NCBI RefSeq assembly: GCF_040954835.1
Contig: NC_090707.1
Span: 17,378,570-17,442,569 of the forward strand
Source: Lepisosteus oculatus
Taxonomy: Eukaryota; Chordata; Actinopteri; Semionotiformes; Lepisosteidae
Direction: 5' to 3'
Length of the DNA: 64,000 nucleotides
The position numbers were made by a program, and so were the translations under genes. The notes beneath the pieces were generated by a model. It was given only the letters and a program-made list of their open reading frames with translations. It did not search any database and was not told the DNA's origin. This document shows positions 1,264-53,185 of the stretch, piece after piece. Every line of letters starts with the position of its first letter. Positions within the stretch are counted from its first letter, which is position 1.

Positions 1264-4018
1264 TTATCTGTTTAATGAAGCTTCTTCTCGCTGGTCTGGC
1301 GAAGGAACTGCAGTTTTACTCAGTACGGCGGCAGAATAGGGCAGAAACCCACTCTCGGACCTTTGCCCGGCTGCTGTGCAAGTAAAGTCTGCGCTGGCAC
1401 TTCTTGAGCCCAGGGCGCTCGCTGCCTGGCTACTGTGACAGCTGAGGCAGGAGCACGGGCCGGTGCCCGACGGTGCGCCCGCAGCTGCGGCCGCGGCTGC
1501 GGCTGCCGCTGCCGCGGAAGCCGCGGCCGAGCTGTTCAGCCCGGCAGGTGACTGGTAGAGTCCCGGGTGCCTGAAGCTACACAGCAGCTCTGGCCTCGAG
1601 TAAGGATGCGACAGCGCGCGGAAGGTGTCAAGAGGACGGATGGAGGTAGCAAAAGGTGACGCTGCAGCACCCGTTGCGGCCGCAGCGGCGGCTGCTGCTG
1701 TAACACCCACATGCGGGTAGTAGTGCAGAGGCATGTGGGAATGGAAAGGGTATGGTAGACTTCCGGTGGCAGCCGCGTGCGTCATCATGTAGGTGTAAAA
1801 ACTCGGGTCCGCTGGATGAGGCCAAGACATGGCCAGCCGCTGTCTCTTATCCTTCATCCGCCTGTTCTGGAACCATACCTGAAGAAGCAGAACGCACCCT
1901 TAAAACGACGGAATTTTATTCTCTATAAACACGGTTTTCAATAAGATAAAAAATGGTCTAATAATAACACCTTTACAAATTTACAAATATTTATATTTAA
2001 ATATATTATGCACCCTATTGATGTCTGTACCTTTGAGTTGATGTAATGTTTTGCTTCGGGTTTGAAATAAAAAAAAATGTCAGAAATGTCTTTCGTGAAC
2101 CGGTGTATTGTCATTTACCCCTAAGGAAATCAGGCATACATCACTAAGACGCTAGATTACAAATCATAACAAAAACGTAGATTTGTATAGGCCTGTGCGT
2201 TTAAAATCGAAGAGAAATGTTGCGCTGTGTAGCAAAAACAATAGCTTAATTCAAATTAATTCTAGGAACGTGTAAACTAATTTGTTTATATTTTAGGAAC
2301 ACAAACTTCCACTCAACAGTTCACAGGTATTTAAAATTATTCCTGAAGAATGTAATATTAATAGATAAAATAAAATAAATTGTATTTTCTCCTTTAAGGT
2401 AATATATTACTGAAAACGAGAATTTCATGAATATATTTTATCACACTTTAAATCTGAAGGCGACTAAAACACCGCATAAAATATGGGTATACCAGGTCTC
2501 GTTGCTCACAAGTATACGAAGATATACTTTTTCATAACATAGAACTAATATTAAATGCACGCTTACATATTTTTGTAAACTAATCTTTTAACCAAACATT
2601 TTAAATGTTAACAGAGAGAGTCACTGCGATACATGCGGCTGCACTTGATAACCTTCCTGATTTTTATTATTAACGTGACTTAATTGTCGCATGGAGATTT
2701 ATTTAAAACATTATGCACGGTTAAAAAATAAAACGTAGATTGAACCCAAACATGAAAATATTCGTGTTTGTCTTATGACAGGGTGCTGTGCTAATACAAT
2801 GCACACTGATATGCAAAACCGAGAAATGAATAAAAATGATGTTGTTTAACAAACCTTTATAGTGGTTTCTGGTAGATTTAAAGCTGCTGCCAGTTCACAT
2901 CTTCGTGGTCTTGAGACATAATTTTCTCTGTAGAACTCTTTTTCCAGTCTGGCTATTTGTTCTCTAGTGAAAGCAGTCCGGTACCTTCTCACCTGATCAG
3001 CACTCGAACTTGAGCTGCCTATCGAATTACCGTTTATGTTCAGACTGGATACTGAAGATGTGCTTGTGTTGGATGTTGCTGAGGTGCTGTCTGAAAAAAC
3101 TAGAAAAGACACGGTGTACGTAAACATTAGAAAACCATGCGTTGTTTTGTGTGAAAATATATTCTCGTGACATTTTAGCTACGGCGAAGTTCTTTCGATT
3201 TTACTGTGTGTGTGTGTGACAATATTTCAAAATATTATTCGCATTTGTTTTTTACATTTAAGTTAAGGGCACATGCGACTAAATGCCAGTGGCAATCTAC
3301 CAATTCGCTTAAAAACTTTTATTCCCTTTTCTGCCGTATATTCCGCAATGTGGACGATTTCCCCTTCCGCTATCGTTTGTACAAAATTTCAAGAAATCAC
3401 AAAACGAACAAAGAACATCAGCACAAAATGCTGGATGCATCGTTTTCTTATCAGCTACAAAAATCACAATTAGAAACAAGAGCATAAGCAATAAACCGAG
3501 CGAGTGCTATGTATAGAATTGCAGTAATTTTGTATATTTCCATGTTACAAAATCACAAATATCACATAACGTGCCTAGGGGAAATATCAAATACCTTTGC
3601 TGTTGTTTTCCTTGTGCTGGGTGGCACTGAGACTGTTTGGGGAGCGATGTGCTGAGCATCCCACCTCCACATCACTGTTCATGTCTGCCTCTTGAGCAAC
3701 TTCTGGGTACAGGGCGATTTTCTTCCTGTTTTCAGATGAAGAGATCTCTGAAGAGGAGGTATTGTCGTTATTCGGATGATGTGGATTGAATAGGCTCTCT
3801 ATTTCGAACTTGCCTTTAGCGGGGATATCCCCTAGATTGCCATGCAGAGATGCGGAAGTTAGTCTGGGGCTGAGACGACCACTGTGCTGTGAATTTTCAA
3901 GGGCCTCCAACACTGCATTTCCAGCTGAGTCTGACAAATTCGAAAGCCTTTTAGCAGCAGCGGGGCTGTGCAACCCCCTTTCCATCAGAATCATCTCCTT
4001 TCTTATTCTTTCCATCAT
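1264..4018 (-). CDS. evx2: Even-skipped-type homeobox protein Evx2, three exons
   Basis: Evx2 is a nuclear homeodomain regulator expressed with posterior HoxD genes in tail bud, appendages and spinal interneurons. Exons on the minus strand are 4018-3595, 3090-2855 and 1878-1264, giving 424 residues (human EVX2 about 476). The start at 4018 begins MMERIRKEM, the family N-terminus. All junctions are GT-AG and in phase: phase 1 at intron 1, phase 0 at intron 2. The homeodomain spans about residues 175-234, and intron 2 splits it between codons 46 (Lys) and 47 (Val), as in the Evx family. Exon 3 encodes the [12 protein letters not shown] stretch, the Evx-specific [14 protein letters not shown] segment, alanine runs near residues 281-288 and 335-350, and the family C-terminus ending EEASLNR. 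It is transcribed away from hoxd13, the conserved Evx2-HoxD arrangement. Confidence 0.97.
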
Positions 4019-4450: not shown

Positions 4451-6772
4451 TGGGGTGAAATTGACAGTCTGATTAATAAAATGAGCACTGCAAGATTTCC
4501 CTCTTCATTTAGGAATATCATTACGCTGTGATTTTCTATTGTTCCTCTCTTCTGTTCTTTCTGCTTTTGCTACACTGTCGAGGACTGCACGGCGAGATGG
4601 CAAAATTACGAAATCTTAAAGTTTCGTTTATTTAGTTCCATCATCTCTCAATCCTTGGTGATGAAATATACAGTTATTCTTAAATACGCATATGTACACA
4701 TTAGAGATTTTAAAGCACAGGATAAAACGTCAAAAGGACGTTTATATTTAGTACATAGTATTCTTTATTTTATTTCCTATTTTACATTTTTCGGGCTGAC
4801 GTTCACAAAACATTACACTATTTTCTATTCATTATAATAGTTAATTATTTAGTAGGATGCAAAGAAATTCACAATTATTACAACTTACAATTTCAGTTTG
4901 CATATGGATGTATTCTTTTGTGAAGAACGTTTTACAGGTATTAAGTTTACTAACAGAATGCTTTATTTTTTGGAGTAGTCTACACATCATTACAGAATAG
5001 TCGCAGTGTTTTCAAAGTGAGAATTCGGCAATTTTGAGGGAACACTTTTAAAAATGCGAGCTTTATTTTGGAAATCAAACTTGGATTAATTTATCGCTAC
5101 AGCGCTGAAATGAATCCACTAGACGACAGTAAAGGATTTTTAGGTGACCCTCGTTTGATAAACACAACCTTTCTTATTGTTAATTGTTCAAGAACTGATG
5201 ACGCAGATGACAACGATAATAATGAAGATTGAACTTTAGTTCGAATTTTCGGTGTGCATTCTGTACCCATTTTTAAACATTGAATGGCAAATTAAACAAA
5301 TCACATAGAAAAATTAAAGCTAAATTTCTGTTGACATTTGAAATTTAGGAGTCATAAACGTTTAGTATGATTTAGTATCGGAAGATATCATCTGAATGCC
5401 GCTGGCGCATTACTTGAAATATTTAAATATAACTAGACAGGTTTTGAACGTTGCTCTGTTAAGATATATGATTATTTTAAAGTTAATCTATTTGCACAAT
5501 AAAATGAGCCCCCTTCATTTTCTATCTACATGCTTCCTGCTCCAGTTTAGATATCTCCTTTTTCATTTTTTTTAATCATCGCGGTCCATTTCAAGTTGTG
5601 TAATGTCTCCTCTCAATGTTAACCTTTCGAATTTTTAGTTTTTGCTACAATTTCGGATGTAGGCAACGAAGACGCGAAGTATAATAAATAAGGCGAACAA
5701 TCAACGAGTGTCTGTTTCCCCAGTAAGCAGGCAGTGTGTGAGCATGGTTTGTGTTCGGGAGGTTTTGATGCAGAGAACGTGTGTGTGCGGGCTTCAAGAG
5801 AAAGCGGCTGGAGACGAGCGAACAGGTAAAGAAAACTGTTCTTCGGCGTCCTTTGGCGCCCCCAACAGTTTTTTTTTTCTGTTAAGGGTGCGAATTGAGA
5901 GGTGTGTTATTGAGAGGTGGTCAAAATAGGGCCATTGTTGATTATTTCGTTTTTACAATAAAATTAAGAGTGACAAACATGGACATACTTAATGGAATTT
6001 ATAAAACAGTGTACTAACTTCTTATAGAATTCACATAATTCTTGTTTTAGTTGGAGGTTTTTTTTTTCCCCCACAACACATTTTTATGAGAAATGGCTTT
6101 CTAGGCCTATGTTACATCGCTTTATAGTGTAATATAGAGTCAGAAATCCTAAATTAAATGTTTTAATCAAATCTGTAATACGCAAGTTGTATTAAATGGC
6201 GTTTTGGAAACTAAACAAAAACGTGGACATAATTCGTAATTATATATCATACATATAACTTTAATAACAAGGACATATTGCTCAAGTCTAATCACAAAAA
6301 CTGATACTGTAAAGCAGTATGGATGTCATTCAGGACATATCAAGCAGTGGTTGTAACACTGTTAGCAGGAATAATACTACCACAGTATGAGGCACTGTGG
6401 GTGCTAATTAATGGCGGAACATATCCTAAACTATAGGCTAGATTACAGCGCGGCATTTTATATTATAAATATATATTCATCCATTATTTAACACACATTT
6501 TAGATTTTTTGCCATTGTTGCCCACGATTTTCGTCGGCCTACAGGACCAGACAGAAAGTAAAGGCACGACACAGTATCAACCTTTTGTCATTACTTCGTA
6601 ACCAAAGCAGTCGCTAATGTCGCTCTGTCCTTGACTTTAGTAGAATAAGTATAATTTGCTGTCTCTCTAACTAAGTTTTATTGCCCAGTGTAGTGAGTTA
6701 AAAGCCATAAAAGCCCCACATTGGCTTGAAGCAAACGACAGAACGGGTTATAGATCACAATGATCGTCTGGT
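4451..6772. other. evx2-hoxd14 fossil spacer
   Basis: AT-rich spacer between evx2 and the hoxd14 remains. It contains short open frames without recognisable domains. No RNA gene, mobile element or long repeat was recognised. In other vertebrates the Evx2-HoxD13 interval carries regulatory and insulating sequences, but I cannot place any here by eye. Confidence 0.4.
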
Positions 6773-7995
6773 TTGGTTTCCTACACTTTAAATTTAGAAG
6801 TCATTCGAGCCCACAGGTGCTGCGTGTCGGAGCCTGCTTGCAAATTTAACATATTTTCGTCTTGTGTATTCAGCATGTTTTTGGATCCAGTTTCTCCACA
6901 GTGTAAACTCACAGAGCCATCTAGTGATTGCGGTGTAATATTGCAAGATGACATCTGGTGTAATGGAATGAGATTTTCTGACAACACTGGAGTTCCTTTG
7001 TCGTCACCATTTCACTTCTGAAGACCTCAACAGACTTTTAAGGATGATATTTTGCGGTGTGGAAGTAAACAAAGGGATGTTACTGGATTTCTGTACGAGT
7101 GTCTTCGATACATTTCCAATCCTATCCAGACAGCTGAAAATCGTAAATCTTCATTCTCTACATACAGTCCAACCAACTATAATCTTGCCAAGAACCCCGA
7201 ATGTTCTCCTCTCGATCACAACTGGCCCGCTAATGTATATCACCTGCATTTTTAAACCGATTCTCCTACCCACAGGAGGTTGCTCTAACCTAGTTACACT
7301 ACGGGACTTCACAGTATCATAGAGTACCCATTGAACCACATACTGTACCACAGGAATATATAGTGTCACAGGCCGTTAGATTTGAAATCCTTTTTGTTAA
7401 CGTGATATTGTACGTGAAATTAAATATACTTGAAACATATTATCAATATCTTTCAAATATAAAACTTTTAATGTATTGTTTAAATCCCTTGTATTCTTAA
7501 AGATGAGGAAAAATGGCATTTAACTTTCCCCGCTATGAGAATGATATTCCAGCGGTAAGTAACCTCCATCAGTTTTAAGCCTCAGGCAACATGTATACAT
7601 TGTGTGGATATCTCATTTTAAAAGCCAGTTTGCAATGACGGTTGATTGTTTTCCTTGCAGCATTAGATTTCGTCTCACATGTTTCTCGGTGCACACCTGC
7701 AAGGCAGGGAAAGAGATGAATCCCCTACAGCAAACATCTGACCGCTGAGCTTTGAGAAGGCATCCGAGAAGAATAGTTTTCTCCCTCCCGAAATTCGATT
7801 GAACTTTTCGCTAAAGCTTAAAGTTACCGAAAGGCAGGTGAGGCCCGCTGCTGTGATTCCAACAATAAAAAGATCTCATCAGGTCCTTGCGGAAAAAATA
7901 AATAAAGGTCAAAATTTGACACTTCTTTTTCTTTTTTTTCCTTTTAGGTTTAAATATGGTTTCAGAATCAGAAACAGAAAAGGCTTCACATCTGA
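6773..7995 (+). pseudogene. hoxd14: hoxd14 pseudogene with homeobox intron
   Basis: A dead Hox14-group gene sits exactly where hoxd14 lies in cartilaginous fishes. A probable exon 2 begins after a TTTTCCTTGCAG acceptor at 7661. Homeobox codons 1-44 run from 7705 to 7837, followed by a GT-AG intron at 7838-7947 (110 bp) and codons 45-57 from 7948 to 7986. Canonical residues fall in register: Leu16, Glu42, Arg43, Gln44, Ile47, Trp48, Phe49, Gln50 and Asn51. Breaks are a TGA at codon 5 (Arg in family members), one extra T at 7751-7753 between codons 16 and 17, and a TAA at codon 46 (Lys in most Hox proteins). Gln52 and Gln54 (WFQNQKQK) are unlike any other gene in the window and resemble my memory of Hox14 proteins. 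A single frame at 6773-7255, interrupted by one TGA at 7019, is the candidate exon 1. The homeobox assignment is firm; the exon 1 limits are not. Confidence 0.85.
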
Positions 7996-10310
7996 GCTAA
8001 CTTTGTATGCAGGCCTATGGCTCACTTTCTAAATACTAATTCCTTTGATTGGTTGGGTTTGCATGTGTCTGTCATCATAACCTTACTTAAAAGTAATTCG
8101 TTAATTGCTAACTATTTTTTTTTCCATTATGGGTTGTCTTTGTTACCTTAAAGAGAAAACGCAGCAGAAAATAGCCTATACCCATCAGGCCCTATCTTGG
8201 CATGACGGTAGTTAGAAGTCTACATATGTTGCAAGTTTGTATTTTTAAGTTCATTGTCAGAAGTTGATTCCTAATGGAGTGAGTGCTTCAGCTGATTTTG
8301 TTGCATTTGAGATATCACTAGTTGTAGCCGCCATTTTTTGTTACGTCTTATTATTTTTCCATTAAAAATTAAGGTGTGCAATCTTTTTTTTACTTTTCAA
8401 AGCACCACACGAAAGACACGTTTGCTATAGTATGGGCTTCTGAAATATTTTTGATGTCATCTAAGAAGGATCACCTGAAACACCCGAGGTACCACGATCT
8501 CTTCATTTCGCTATCAATGTAATATAATGTAAGTTATATGTCTATATTCCAAAATGTAGTTCGCTTGCATACCCTCGTAAACATTTCACATCTGAAACTT
8601 TATTTCGTTATGAAAAGACCTTACACGTGAATTTCGATCTACACGTTTTTTCTGGTTTTATCATGGATCTGCGGACTTTACGCACGTCTGTACAAACTGC
8701 TGTTCTTTTTTCATTATTAAAACTCCATATATAAATACAAATACTTAGTTCTATTAATATTCTCAAATTCTGAGTGAGTTCAGATCACCATTTTAGATAA
8801 TAAGTCTACATTGAGAAGGATTGTTTTATAAATTATATCTAATAAATCTTTAGTCTGCGTTCTGGCAGTTCATCGATGATTAATTCCGACTCAAATAAAG
8901 TTGAAAGCACTATATAATATATTGAAAGATTGGCTTTAATTCATAAGTCTGGCAAGGAACTTTTAGTCGAAGAATGATCTATTGTTACCTAAGCTATACG
9001 CAATCTATTTAAAAATTGAATTCCATAATTAAACGTATTAGGTCAGAGACGCATGTGTCCATGGTTAAAACATAATTTATTCCGAATTACAGAGTGTTTG
9101 TTCTTATTGTGTGAAAAATACTGGATGATATATGTAGAACAATTATTTTAAAGTTTATTTTGTATTGTGCTGTGGTTTCTTTATGTAGAAATGTTCATGT
9201 AAAAAACATTATCAAACTTACAATGCTTTGTAATAAGAATGGCTTACTGGTGAACTATGGTATATGAGTTCGATATATGATTAGATAGATTTAAAAAGAA
9301 TATTGAGAAATTTTGTCAGCATCCCCTTAACCACCCCAAGGGTATAAGTGAGGAATTGAAAAAAAGGCAATTATAAGTTTCAATATCGTTTACTTATATA
9401 ACAATGAGGGTTCGATATTTTTGTAAACCAAACCAAACCAAAATATATTTGACCTAAGGCCCAATGTTATATTTGTTAGTGTTATTTGGCACACAGTGTG
9501 ATTTCTTAAGTAGTATCTATAAAGATATTTTTCTTGACAGCTCTTCGAAGAAATGCAGACAATTCAGACTGTTTTGTACACTTAATAAATTCAGTTGTAA
9601 TCACAGATATTGCAATAATCTGTTAAATGGTTCTATACATCCTGTTTCACCAAATATGTTTAAATCGAAAGTGTTCCGCACTTTAGTCAAATTGACTAAA
9701 CTGTTTTAAATTATGTATGAAATCGGTTAGATTTGTTTGATCTTTATATAGTGTTTATATAGTGTTGGTTTAAAATACATTTTATTCTGAGAGGTACAAG
9801 AGGAACTGTTCACTGTACTTTCAAATATTAGTTGTATTCGTCTGTAAACTATGCTACATTTGCATTTTAGTTACGTCTTTTAAGAACATGTCCATATTGA
9901 AATCTTTAGGATCTATGCGCAGCTTGCCAAGGTGTTAAAAAACAAAAATTTGGAACTTGAACATATACTGTAGGTTCAGATAAGACGCACAAGGTATAAT
10001 TCAGTATACCTTGATAAAATGAACAAAACATAAATTAATCTATCTTTTTAAACAATTGTAAATGAGTCATCTGCTCTTGTTCCATTTTCAGCTATTGGAA
10101 ACTTCGTTTCAAGCAGAATATAAAAAGACAAACGTTTTTAAAAATGAACCGCATTTTCTCTCCTGTACGATTAGTCGACTCTCCGTCTGCGATTAATAAA
10201 GCTTGTAGTTCAGTTCAGTGCTATAAATTAAAATTTCTTTCCAATGAACATTTCTAAGGCCATATTCAGTTTATTGTAACTCTAGTTCTAATGTTCATGC
10301 TATTTGCATA
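7996..10310. other. hoxd14 fossil-hoxd13 spacer
   Basis: AT-rich spacer with no recognisable coding sequence beyond short chance frames. A few homeodomain-type TAAT cores are scattered, as expected from composition. Nothing else could be supported. Confidence 0.4.
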
Positions 10311-10389
10311 TCACGTGAAAGCGTCCGTCCAACCACAAACTCCATGTTCCCAGTACTGTAATTAGTTAGAAAAAAATACATATATATAA
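10311..10389 (+). promoter_or_regulatory. hoxd13 promoter with E-box and TATA-like box
   Basis: A perfect TCACGTGA E-box lies at 10311-10318. A TATATATAA box at 10381-10389 sits about 140 bases before the hoxd13 start codon. The 5' leader after it contains several short upstream ATGs. The start of transcription near 10410-10420 is inferred from the TATA position. Confidence 0.6.
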
Positions 10390-10529
10390 GGATAATTTGT
10401 CTTCATCAGTGACTGGGTTTTATGTTCCTTATTGCTCTGAGGTAACTTTAACACTACAGGAATGCCATGTCGTTTTCTGGAGTGATGTGAGGGGTTTTCA
10501 AAGGGGTTTTCGTCAGAAAATCACAGAAA

Positions 10530-12483
10530 ATGGAGGGATTGGGAGGGGATATCCCTTCATCACAGCGCAGGACTTTCTTTTCTACTGCTTTTGAGGCTCA
10601 TTCAAGCCGAGCTGCACCAGGCTCGTCGGTTTATTCATTTGGCGATAGATCAGACTCGCTCGGCCCAGATTCAATAAAACCCTATACGCCTCTTCAAAGT
10701 TCCGCAGCGTCCGCAAATACGTCTATCGGTTACAGCTGTCATTTTGGGAACAGTTATTATGGTTGCAAACTCCCACACAGTGCCGGATTTCAACGGAGCG
10801 TGATGAAACACAATGCACACGAGTCTGTTGGTGGACATTCCGAGGACATGTATATGGATATTTCAGGTTTTACCGGCAATAATATGCACTGCAGCGAATT
10901 TCCCGGGAGAGCAAAGGAATTTACCGTCTACCAAGGATATACAGGTTCCTACGCACGGTTCCCTGGCTATATCGATGTACCTGTAGCACCAAGAACTGGT
11001 GTTGGAGATTCAAGGCATGAGACTGTTTTACCGATTGAGGGTTATCAACCATGGACCTTGTCAAAGAGCTGGAACAGCCAACTTTATTGTGCCAAAGAAC
11101 AAATGCCCAACTCGCATATCTGGAAGTCGTCACTCACAGGTAGGCTGTAATTTCCTTGTGCATTTTGACCATGAAATAGAATAGATTCCATGTGTCTTAT
11201 AAAGAGAAACTACAGCGACAGAACTGTAAAAGACTGGTGTAAGACGACTTAAAACTACCCAAGTGTCTTAATTATACCGACAAATACTCAACTTTGACAT
11301 TTCTAAAGTAACTTACAAGATTTTGGCATAATGATTATGTTTGGGGAAATGAAAAATAAAGAAAATAAGGAATAAATCAGCACCGCGATTATCACCAGGA
11401 ATAGACAGTTAGAAAATGGATGTGTGGAATAAATACGTTTGTACCAATATAGGTGAACAAGGAAATGCATGTAATTTTTTTAGCATATACACAATATAAT
11501 AATAATAAACCTGGTGGAAATCTTACCGTGTAATAATACCGTGTTACTTATATTGTCCGGGCAATAGACTAATATACATTATGTATGGGTGACTGGAATA
11601 AACGTTCTGCGTTCAGTAGCAAGAACCTATAAAAGATTGAAAAAGCGTATTTTAAGGACACGATAAAACTTGTTTTGAGAAAAAAAAATCATGCCGTTTG
11701 AATAATGAGACTTTTCTTAAAGTCTCATCTGATTTTGAAGGTGCGATGAGCTTTAAAAGTAAAATAAAACGGGCTTGCGGACAGACTCAATACAACTTTA
11801 TCCGAATGACAGAATAGGAAATAATTACTTTTAAAAAATAACAGCAAGTCAGCCAAGTCCATCCTTGCGGTGATGTCCCTAGGCGCTCCGTAGGCCGAAT
11901 ACTGACTGATCCCCCATTGTCGTTTAAGTGTCGGATCTGCAAACTTCTTTTAGTAAATACGTTAAATAACATTAACTAATGTCATAACACAGAGCATATA
12001 TTTACGTGAGAAACCAGATTCAGTTGATGATACTTTAAAAAACAGCACGCTCACCGATTTTTTTTAAAAAAGTTTTAGGCCCTGAAAAGTTGCAAGAGTG
12101 TATTTAAAATCTTGAGGTGACGCTGGAGAATATTAAAAAATTAAGATATTGCAATAATATTGTCTTTTTTTCTCTCATTCTGGGGCTACGACGCAAAACA
12201 AACGGCTTTCCATTTTCGTCTTGAAGGAGACGTGGTGCTAAATCAAGCAGATGTCAGCGCGTACCGGCGTGGGAGGAAGAAAAGAGTGCCCTACACAAAA
12301 GGCCAGCTCAAGGAGCTTGAACGAGAGTACACCCTCAGTAAATTTATTACCAAAGATAAAAGACGGCGAATCGCTGCGTCAACCAACCTGTCTGAAAGAC
12401 AAGTCACAATTTGGTTTCAGAATCGCAGGGTTAAAGACAAGAAAATATTATCAAAACTCAAAGACTTTGAAAAGTATTCGTAA
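10530..12483 (+). CDS. hoxd13: Homeobox protein Hox-D13, two exons
   Basis: Hoxd13 is the most posterior live gene of the cluster and patterns distal appendages and the urogenital and tail region. Exons are 10530-11139 and 12227-12483, giving 288 residues across a 1087-bp phase-1 GT-AG intron. The start MEGLGGD matches the MDGL start of mammalian HoxD13. Group-13 signatures are seen in exon 1: the YxCHFGNxYYxCK region, MYMDISG, the YQGYTGxYxxxPGYIDV block and the [17 protein letters not shown] block ahead of the splice. The homeodomain is about residues 219-278, with the group-13 [14 protein letters not shown] third helix. The protein lacks the long N-terminal polyalanine tract of mammals, which explains its shorter length (human about 343). 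An AATAAA lies at 12812-12817. Confidence 0.97.
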
Positions 12484-53070: not shown

Positions 53071-53185
53071 TTGTAGAGACTTATATTCCGTCGTCTATAT
53101 ATACCCTGTAGAACCGAATTTGTGTGATATAAACACAGTCACAGATTCGATTCTAGGGGAGTATATGGTCGATGCAAAAACTTCG
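53071..53185 (+). ncRNA. mir10b: mir-10b hairpin
   Basis: The mature 5p arm, starting TACCCTGTAGAACCGAAT, lies at 53102-53124 and is identical to vertebrate miR-10b. The 3p arm, starting ACAGATTCGATTCTAGGGGA, lies at 53141-53162. The loop between them is 16 bases, and the flanking stem sequences (GTCTATATATACC and GTATATGGTCGATGC) pair as in the human precursor. It sits about 1.2 kb upstream of hoxd4, the conserved site, and is probably co-transcribed with the hoxd4 upstream transcript. miR-10 is known to target Hox mRNAs in other vertebrates. Confidence 0.97.

Follow-up and report, generated by a model that had tools for sequence, protein, structure and literature searches.

We analysed a 64-kb stretch of DNA (hereafter the window) that covers a HoxD cluster. 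On its + strand, we observed the homeoboxes of hoxd13, d12, d11, d10, d9, d8 and d4, each of which is continuous, and the homeobox exons of these seven genes and of evx2 are all open. Gene names in the window were assigned by order and sequence. A mir-10 precursor is located upstream of hoxd4, as expected for a HoxD cluster. Between evx2, which is on the − strand, and hoxd13 lies a further homeobox (7661-7995), broken, split by an intron and oriented as hoxd13 (Table 1).

Table 1. Coordinates of the relic, of its flanking genes and of other features in the 64-kb window
Feature	Position	Strand	Remarks
evx2 homeobox exon	2852..2989	-	flanking gene, open; homeobox intron after codon 46, not 44
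Exon 1 start, very weak candidate	6882..6897	+	similarity to paddlefish HoxD14beta forward primer, not significant
Predicted splice acceptor AG, exon 2 start	7659..7660	+	well formed, TTGTTTTCCTTGCAG, as read from the sequence
hoxd14 relic exon 2	7661..7837	+	homeodomain codons 1-44 (7705-7837) and upstream codons
Homeobox intron	7838..7947	+	110 bases, GT-AG, GTGAGG...TTTTAG, after codon 44
hoxd14 relic exon 3	7948..7995	+	homeodomain codons 45-60, WFQNQK motif
hoxd13 homeobox	12274..12444	+	flanking gene, open, homeobox without intron
mir-10 precursor	53095-53169		upstream of hoxd4; Rfam match, 74.8 bits

The broken homeobox can be read in pieces. IPYSKHLTAEL corresponds to homeodomain codons 6-16 (7720-7752) and is followed by a single extra T at 7753, which shifts the frame and sits in a run of only three T. 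Beyond this base, EKASEKNSFLPPEIRLNFSLKLKVTERQ, which ends with KVTERQ, corresponds to codons 17-44 (7754-7837), and V*IWFQNQKQKRL, on the other side of the intron, to codons 45-57 (7948-7986). An earlier reading made from the letters alone (the sequence-only reading) had described the pieces IPYSKHLTAEL, KVTERQ and IWFQNQKQKRL together with one extra T and one intron, and all of these are present in the place that it gave. The stops that it placed at codons 5 and 46 were confirmed as TGA (7717-7719) and TAA (7951-7953), respectively. An in-frame TGA at codon 60 (7993-7995) is additional to that reading and could mark either the original end of the gene or a stop acquired later. The reading frame is therefore disabled by stops at codons 5, 46 and 60, and by one extra base after codon 16. 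Residues 20 and 53 are unlike those of all eight sequences compared, i.e. the window's Hox homeodomains and evx2. The acceptor of exon 2 and both ends of the homeobox intron, as read from the sequence, appear to be still in form.

Statistical support for a homeobox came from alignment by dynamic programming in which frameshifts, stops and GT-AG introns were allowed; the profile was built solely from the seven intact Hox homeodomains of the window. The stretch between evx2 and hoxd13 (4501-10450) scored 81.6 on the + strand compared to 26.1 on the − strand. Chance was excluded, because none of the 283 dinucleotide shuffles of this 5950-base stretch attained the observed score (mean 27.5, sd 3.1, max 38.5). 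Without prior input, and with an intron permitted anywhere, the alignment recovered the extra base as well as the stops and the intron. The X-masked reading of the relic also matched the Pfam Homeodomain family (E 2.9e-08; 33.9 bits, cut-off 22.9), and the 28-residue piece of exon 2 alone gave no Pfam match. Among solved structures, 93 distinct sequences matched the relic at E ≤ 0.1, with Hox-A9 at the top (4.3e-08) followed by Hox-C9 and Hox-B13; there was no Hox14 among the best 60 of these 93 matches.

Exon 1 was not found: the best gapped match between evx2 and the relic to the forward primer of paddlefish HoxD14beta (Table 1), one of the primers published for this gene in the available text of PMC4778128, was equalled by 28 of the 500 shuffles, and the − strand of the window gave a slightly better match. 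Many stops are present in all three frames from 6875 to 7660. GTAAGT at 7555 was considered as the exon 1 donor and was rejected by eye, as its frame cannot be carried into exon 2 without meeting a stop close by.

The homeobox of the relic is split after codon 44, which we take to be the split position of Hox14 homeoboxes. None of the window's seven Hox homeoboxes has an intron at this position, and the split of evx2 is two codons further on. The presumed split at codon 44 fits the reverse primer of paddlefish HoxD14beta, whose end is just past TERQ. According to the available part of PMC3707753, split homeoboxes are found among vertebrates in Hox14 and in lamprey Hox13beta, and also in amphioxus posterior genes, the split position of Hox14 being common to other posterior genes.

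A degenerate primer for ENRFLTPE is given as a paralog-group-14-specific one in the accessible portion of PMC3038165. In the window, a single site has ≤3 mismatches to it; this site lies at 7769-7791, in register with the homeobox (0.14 sites were expected, and 14 of the 100 shuffles had any match). The residues at this position (codons 22-29) read KNSFLPPE and agree with ENRFLTPE at 5/8, which is the top value among the nine window sequences compared; hoxd10 and hoxd4 agree at 4/8. The hallmark of Hox14, WFQNQR, reads WFQNQK in the relic, so that Q at position 52 is common to both and position 53 is K and not R.

For the paddlefish reverse primer, the top ungapped site in the window is at 7824-7845, where 17/22 bases match from TERQ across the splice donor, and the next-best ungapped sites match at 16/22 in two places in the window. 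Its gapped score was equalled by 2 of the 500 shuffles and once on the window's − strand; owing to this equal score on the − strand, the primer counts because of its register and not because of its score. We also observed that this primer, reportedly designed from a transcriptome, appears to extend eight bases beyond the splice donor (GTGAG...). If this alignment holds, the intron was still present in the transcript used for the paddlefish probe, and the homeodomain would be interrupted there past codon 44.

The plain identity of the relic is 18-26/56 to the window's seven Hox homeodomains and 12/56 to evx2. The nearest of them is hoxd10 (26/56), and hoxd13 (20/56) is among the lower ones. As the identity to the window homeodomains is low, the relic is no recent copy of a neighbour. 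A figure legend in the available text of PMC8423624 places Hox14 paralogs between evx2 and hoxd13. We assigned the relic to hoxd14 because its position, its orientation, the position of its intron, its near-hallmark WFQNQK, the two primer sites in register and the lack of a close paralog point that way. Speaking against the assignment are K for R in the hallmark, the agreement with ENRFLTPE at 5/8, the greater identity to hoxd10 than to hoxd13 and the missing exon 1. Judged from these markers and from synteny, and not from a tree, it probably represents hoxd14 and not a different Hox gene that was lost. The same features support the proposal of the sequence-only reading, which had described a fossil hoxd14 between evx2 and hoxd13.

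When the entire 1.2-Gb genome was searched at the protein level, 72 matches were obtained, among which the relic locus was the sole strong one (E 7.5e-11). The remaining 71 matches were 29-53% identical, the next E value being 0.0063, and those of the 71 that were checked against the list of homeobox loci sit at loci of that list. No intact copy of hoxd14 was observed elsewhere in this search of the 1.2-Gb genome, the assembly of which may be incomplete.

Runs of Hox-type homeoboxes were located on four contigs, with at least 11 on C10, at least 10 on C12, at least 11 on C1 and at least 10 on C31 (evx excluded; 150 of the 372 candidates were scored). The cluster names for C10 (A), C1 (C) and C31 (B) were deduced from order and evx neighbours. 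The presence of four Hox clusters argues against teleosts with their extra duplication. It also argues against sterlet, for which eight are reported (PMC7269910), and against paddlefish, in which seven were found (PMC8042750), as far as the accessible parts of these papers go. The genome looks like that of a non-teleost ray-finned fish, as the sequence-only reading had it.

Other Hox14 relics were searched for with a profile that included the relic (13 loci, both strands), in stretches upstream from Hox13 homeoboxes: C10:490200-522100 (31.9 kb) for the A cluster, C31:9381000-9420699 (39.7 kb) for B and C1:19111000-19152000 (41 kb) for C. The profile scan of these stretches revealed nothing near hoxa13, hoxb13 or hoxc13 that could convincingly be taken for a second Hox14 relic. 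The peaks that rose far over the background came from the three Hox13 homeoboxes themselves, from intron-linked shadow peaks next to them and from a two-exon evx-type homeobox. Outside hoxa13, the maximum in the A-cluster stretches was 33.1, a level attained by 15 of the 493 shuffles. A peak located ∼33 kb upstream of hoxc13 (C1 ∼19118400, + strand; positions ∼7388-7460 of the scanned stretch) reached 39.7, a level that none of the 493 shuffles reached. On tracing, it scored 38.6, or 47.7 (uncalibrated) when the relic alone was used as the profile. As a Hox14 relic, this peak was rejected by eye, its alignment having a false intron of >3 kb at codon 31 and Tyr in place of Trp48; there is also a stop at Asn51 where the trace extends that far. 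We judged it to be a chance alignment. The intron penalty was too lenient at long range and led to false secondary + strand peaks beside real genes (the main match uses a 110-base intron). Because these false peaks filled it, the + strand list of the shuffle-calibrated scan is uninformative on this locus. The absence of a second Hox14 relic agrees with the earlier loss of hoxa14 and hoxb14 described in the available text of PMC7269910.

The two-exon evx-type homeobox lies at C31 ∼9409570 to 9410400 on the + strand; one exon carries PETTIK and the other has an evx2-like tail. It is located ∼28-29 kb upstream of the cluster's Hox13 and in the opposite orientation, as is evx2 beside hoxd13, and it is probably evx3 beside HoxB. 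Another observation from the assembly is that contig C14, at 60.0 Mb, is out of size order, its neighbours by number being 37.6 and 34.3 Mb long. The accessible part of a 2026 preprint (PMC13320880) names spotted gar as a potentially novel sex chromosome case.

The locus is almost certainly a unitary hoxd14 pseudogene, the 5′-most member of HoxD, in a gar, the spotted gar being the likeliest species. The gene would once have coded for a transcription factor of the posterior Hox type, its homeobox being split by the intron after codon 44. Under ordinary decay, which is the most likely account, the stops, the frameshift and the changes at core residues would have accumulated in it. With these stops, this frameshift and the altered core residues (20 and 53), no homeodomain can be made from the decayed locus, and the relic would lack protein function. 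It appears to have survived in place in a recognisable form, with its splice signals still in form.

A homeodomain that is otherwise fairly well preserved and intact splice sites are also what would be seen in a live hoxd14 in which errors of assembly or sequencing had produced the stops and the shift. This is very improbable, as three stops, two of them inside the homeodomain and the other at codon 60, occur together with one shift in ∼280 bases, while the neighbouring homeobox exons of evx2 and of the seven hoxd genes are all open. The run of T that holds the extra base is only three long, none of the eight compared sequences has the relic's residue at position 20 or 53, and gar hoxd14 has independently been reported as a pseudogene (PMC8423624, available in part). 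It is scarcely conceivable that the relic is a degenerate duplicate of some other homeobox gene, be it hoxd13, one of hoxd9-d11 or evx2. The closest sequence in the window, hoxd10, has 26/56 residues in common with it, but the identity is low to all of the window homeodomains. Moreover, the seven Hox homeoboxes of the window lack the codon-44 intron, with evx2 split after codon 46, the Hox14 primer sites fall in register, and the location is that given for hoxd14 in other fishes in the available text of PMC8423624.

It is also possible, though unlikely, that only the protein is dead and that the locus has been kept as a transcribed non-coding RNA or as a regulatory element of HoxD in fins. The analogy comes from bowfin, whose hoxd14 is described in the accessible part of PMC8423624 as a likely pseudogene that lies in open chromatin and yet is highly transcribed, gives spliced products and is expressed in fin bud, vent and tailbud; the authors raise a regulatory role for this transcribed relic. 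In the gar relic, the acceptor of exon 2 and the splice sites between exons 2 and 3 are still well formed, as such a retention would have it. Against it, the same text reports gar hoxd14 to be without evidence of transcription, and no Rfam family was above the threshold at the relic, mir-10 being the sole match in the window. On the bowfin analogy, there is a small chance that both holostean lineages kept the locus after the loss of the protein, the gar perhaps as a spliced non-coding transcript or as a cis-element of HoxD in fins. A hoxd14 pseudogene left by ordinary decay is the reading that we prefer.

The relic is already known. In PMC8423624, as far as its available text goes, gar hoxd14 is a pseudogene with no evidence of transcription, the spotted gar genome (Braasch et al. 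2016) being cited. Compared by description, the published pseudogene of spotted gar and the relic are the same gene in the same state, and they are very probably the same locus, here in a newer assembly. Bowfin hoxd14, from the same source, is like the relic in having stops in the coding region and in the homeodomain, in keeping the split junction and in its location between evx2 and hoxd13. It keeps WFQNQR, however, and gives a spliced transcript in fin buds, whereas the gar relic has WFQNQK and gar hoxd14 is reported to be without evidence of transcription.

Paddlefish HoxD14beta is the same gene by name, and its reverse primer (PMC4778128) aligns to the relic at 7824-7845; it differs in being a retained gene (PMC3707753) and in being expressed in fins (PMC4778128), as these partly available papers describe. 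The mention in the sequence-only reading of a dead hoxd14 in paddlefish and gar holds for gar (PMC8423624) and needs correcting for paddlefish; the dead copies reported are those of gar and bowfin (PMC8423624) and one of sterlet. Sterlet hoxd14 is again the same gene by name, and one hoxd14 gene of this fish is reported to be a pseudogene in the available part of PMC7269910. The homeobox intron, ENRFLTPE and WFQNQR are described for HoxD14 of shark and chimaera, HoxA14 of coelacanth and lungfish, and Hox14alpha of lamprey (accessible portions of PMC3038165 and PMC3707753). These are presented there as genes, unlike the broken relic of gar, and the comparison was made through published motifs and primers. 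In teleosts, paralog group 14 is reported to be absent (PMC8423624, in its available text).

The relic adds no new kind of thing, and its 60-codon broken homeobox was recognisable in raw sequence by a reading made without tools. Taken together with the parts of the published accounts that are available, it records how paralog group 14 disappeared in the ray-finned lineage: cartilaginous fishes have it, paddlefish express it, in gar and bowfin it is dead, and from teleosts it is reported to be missing.
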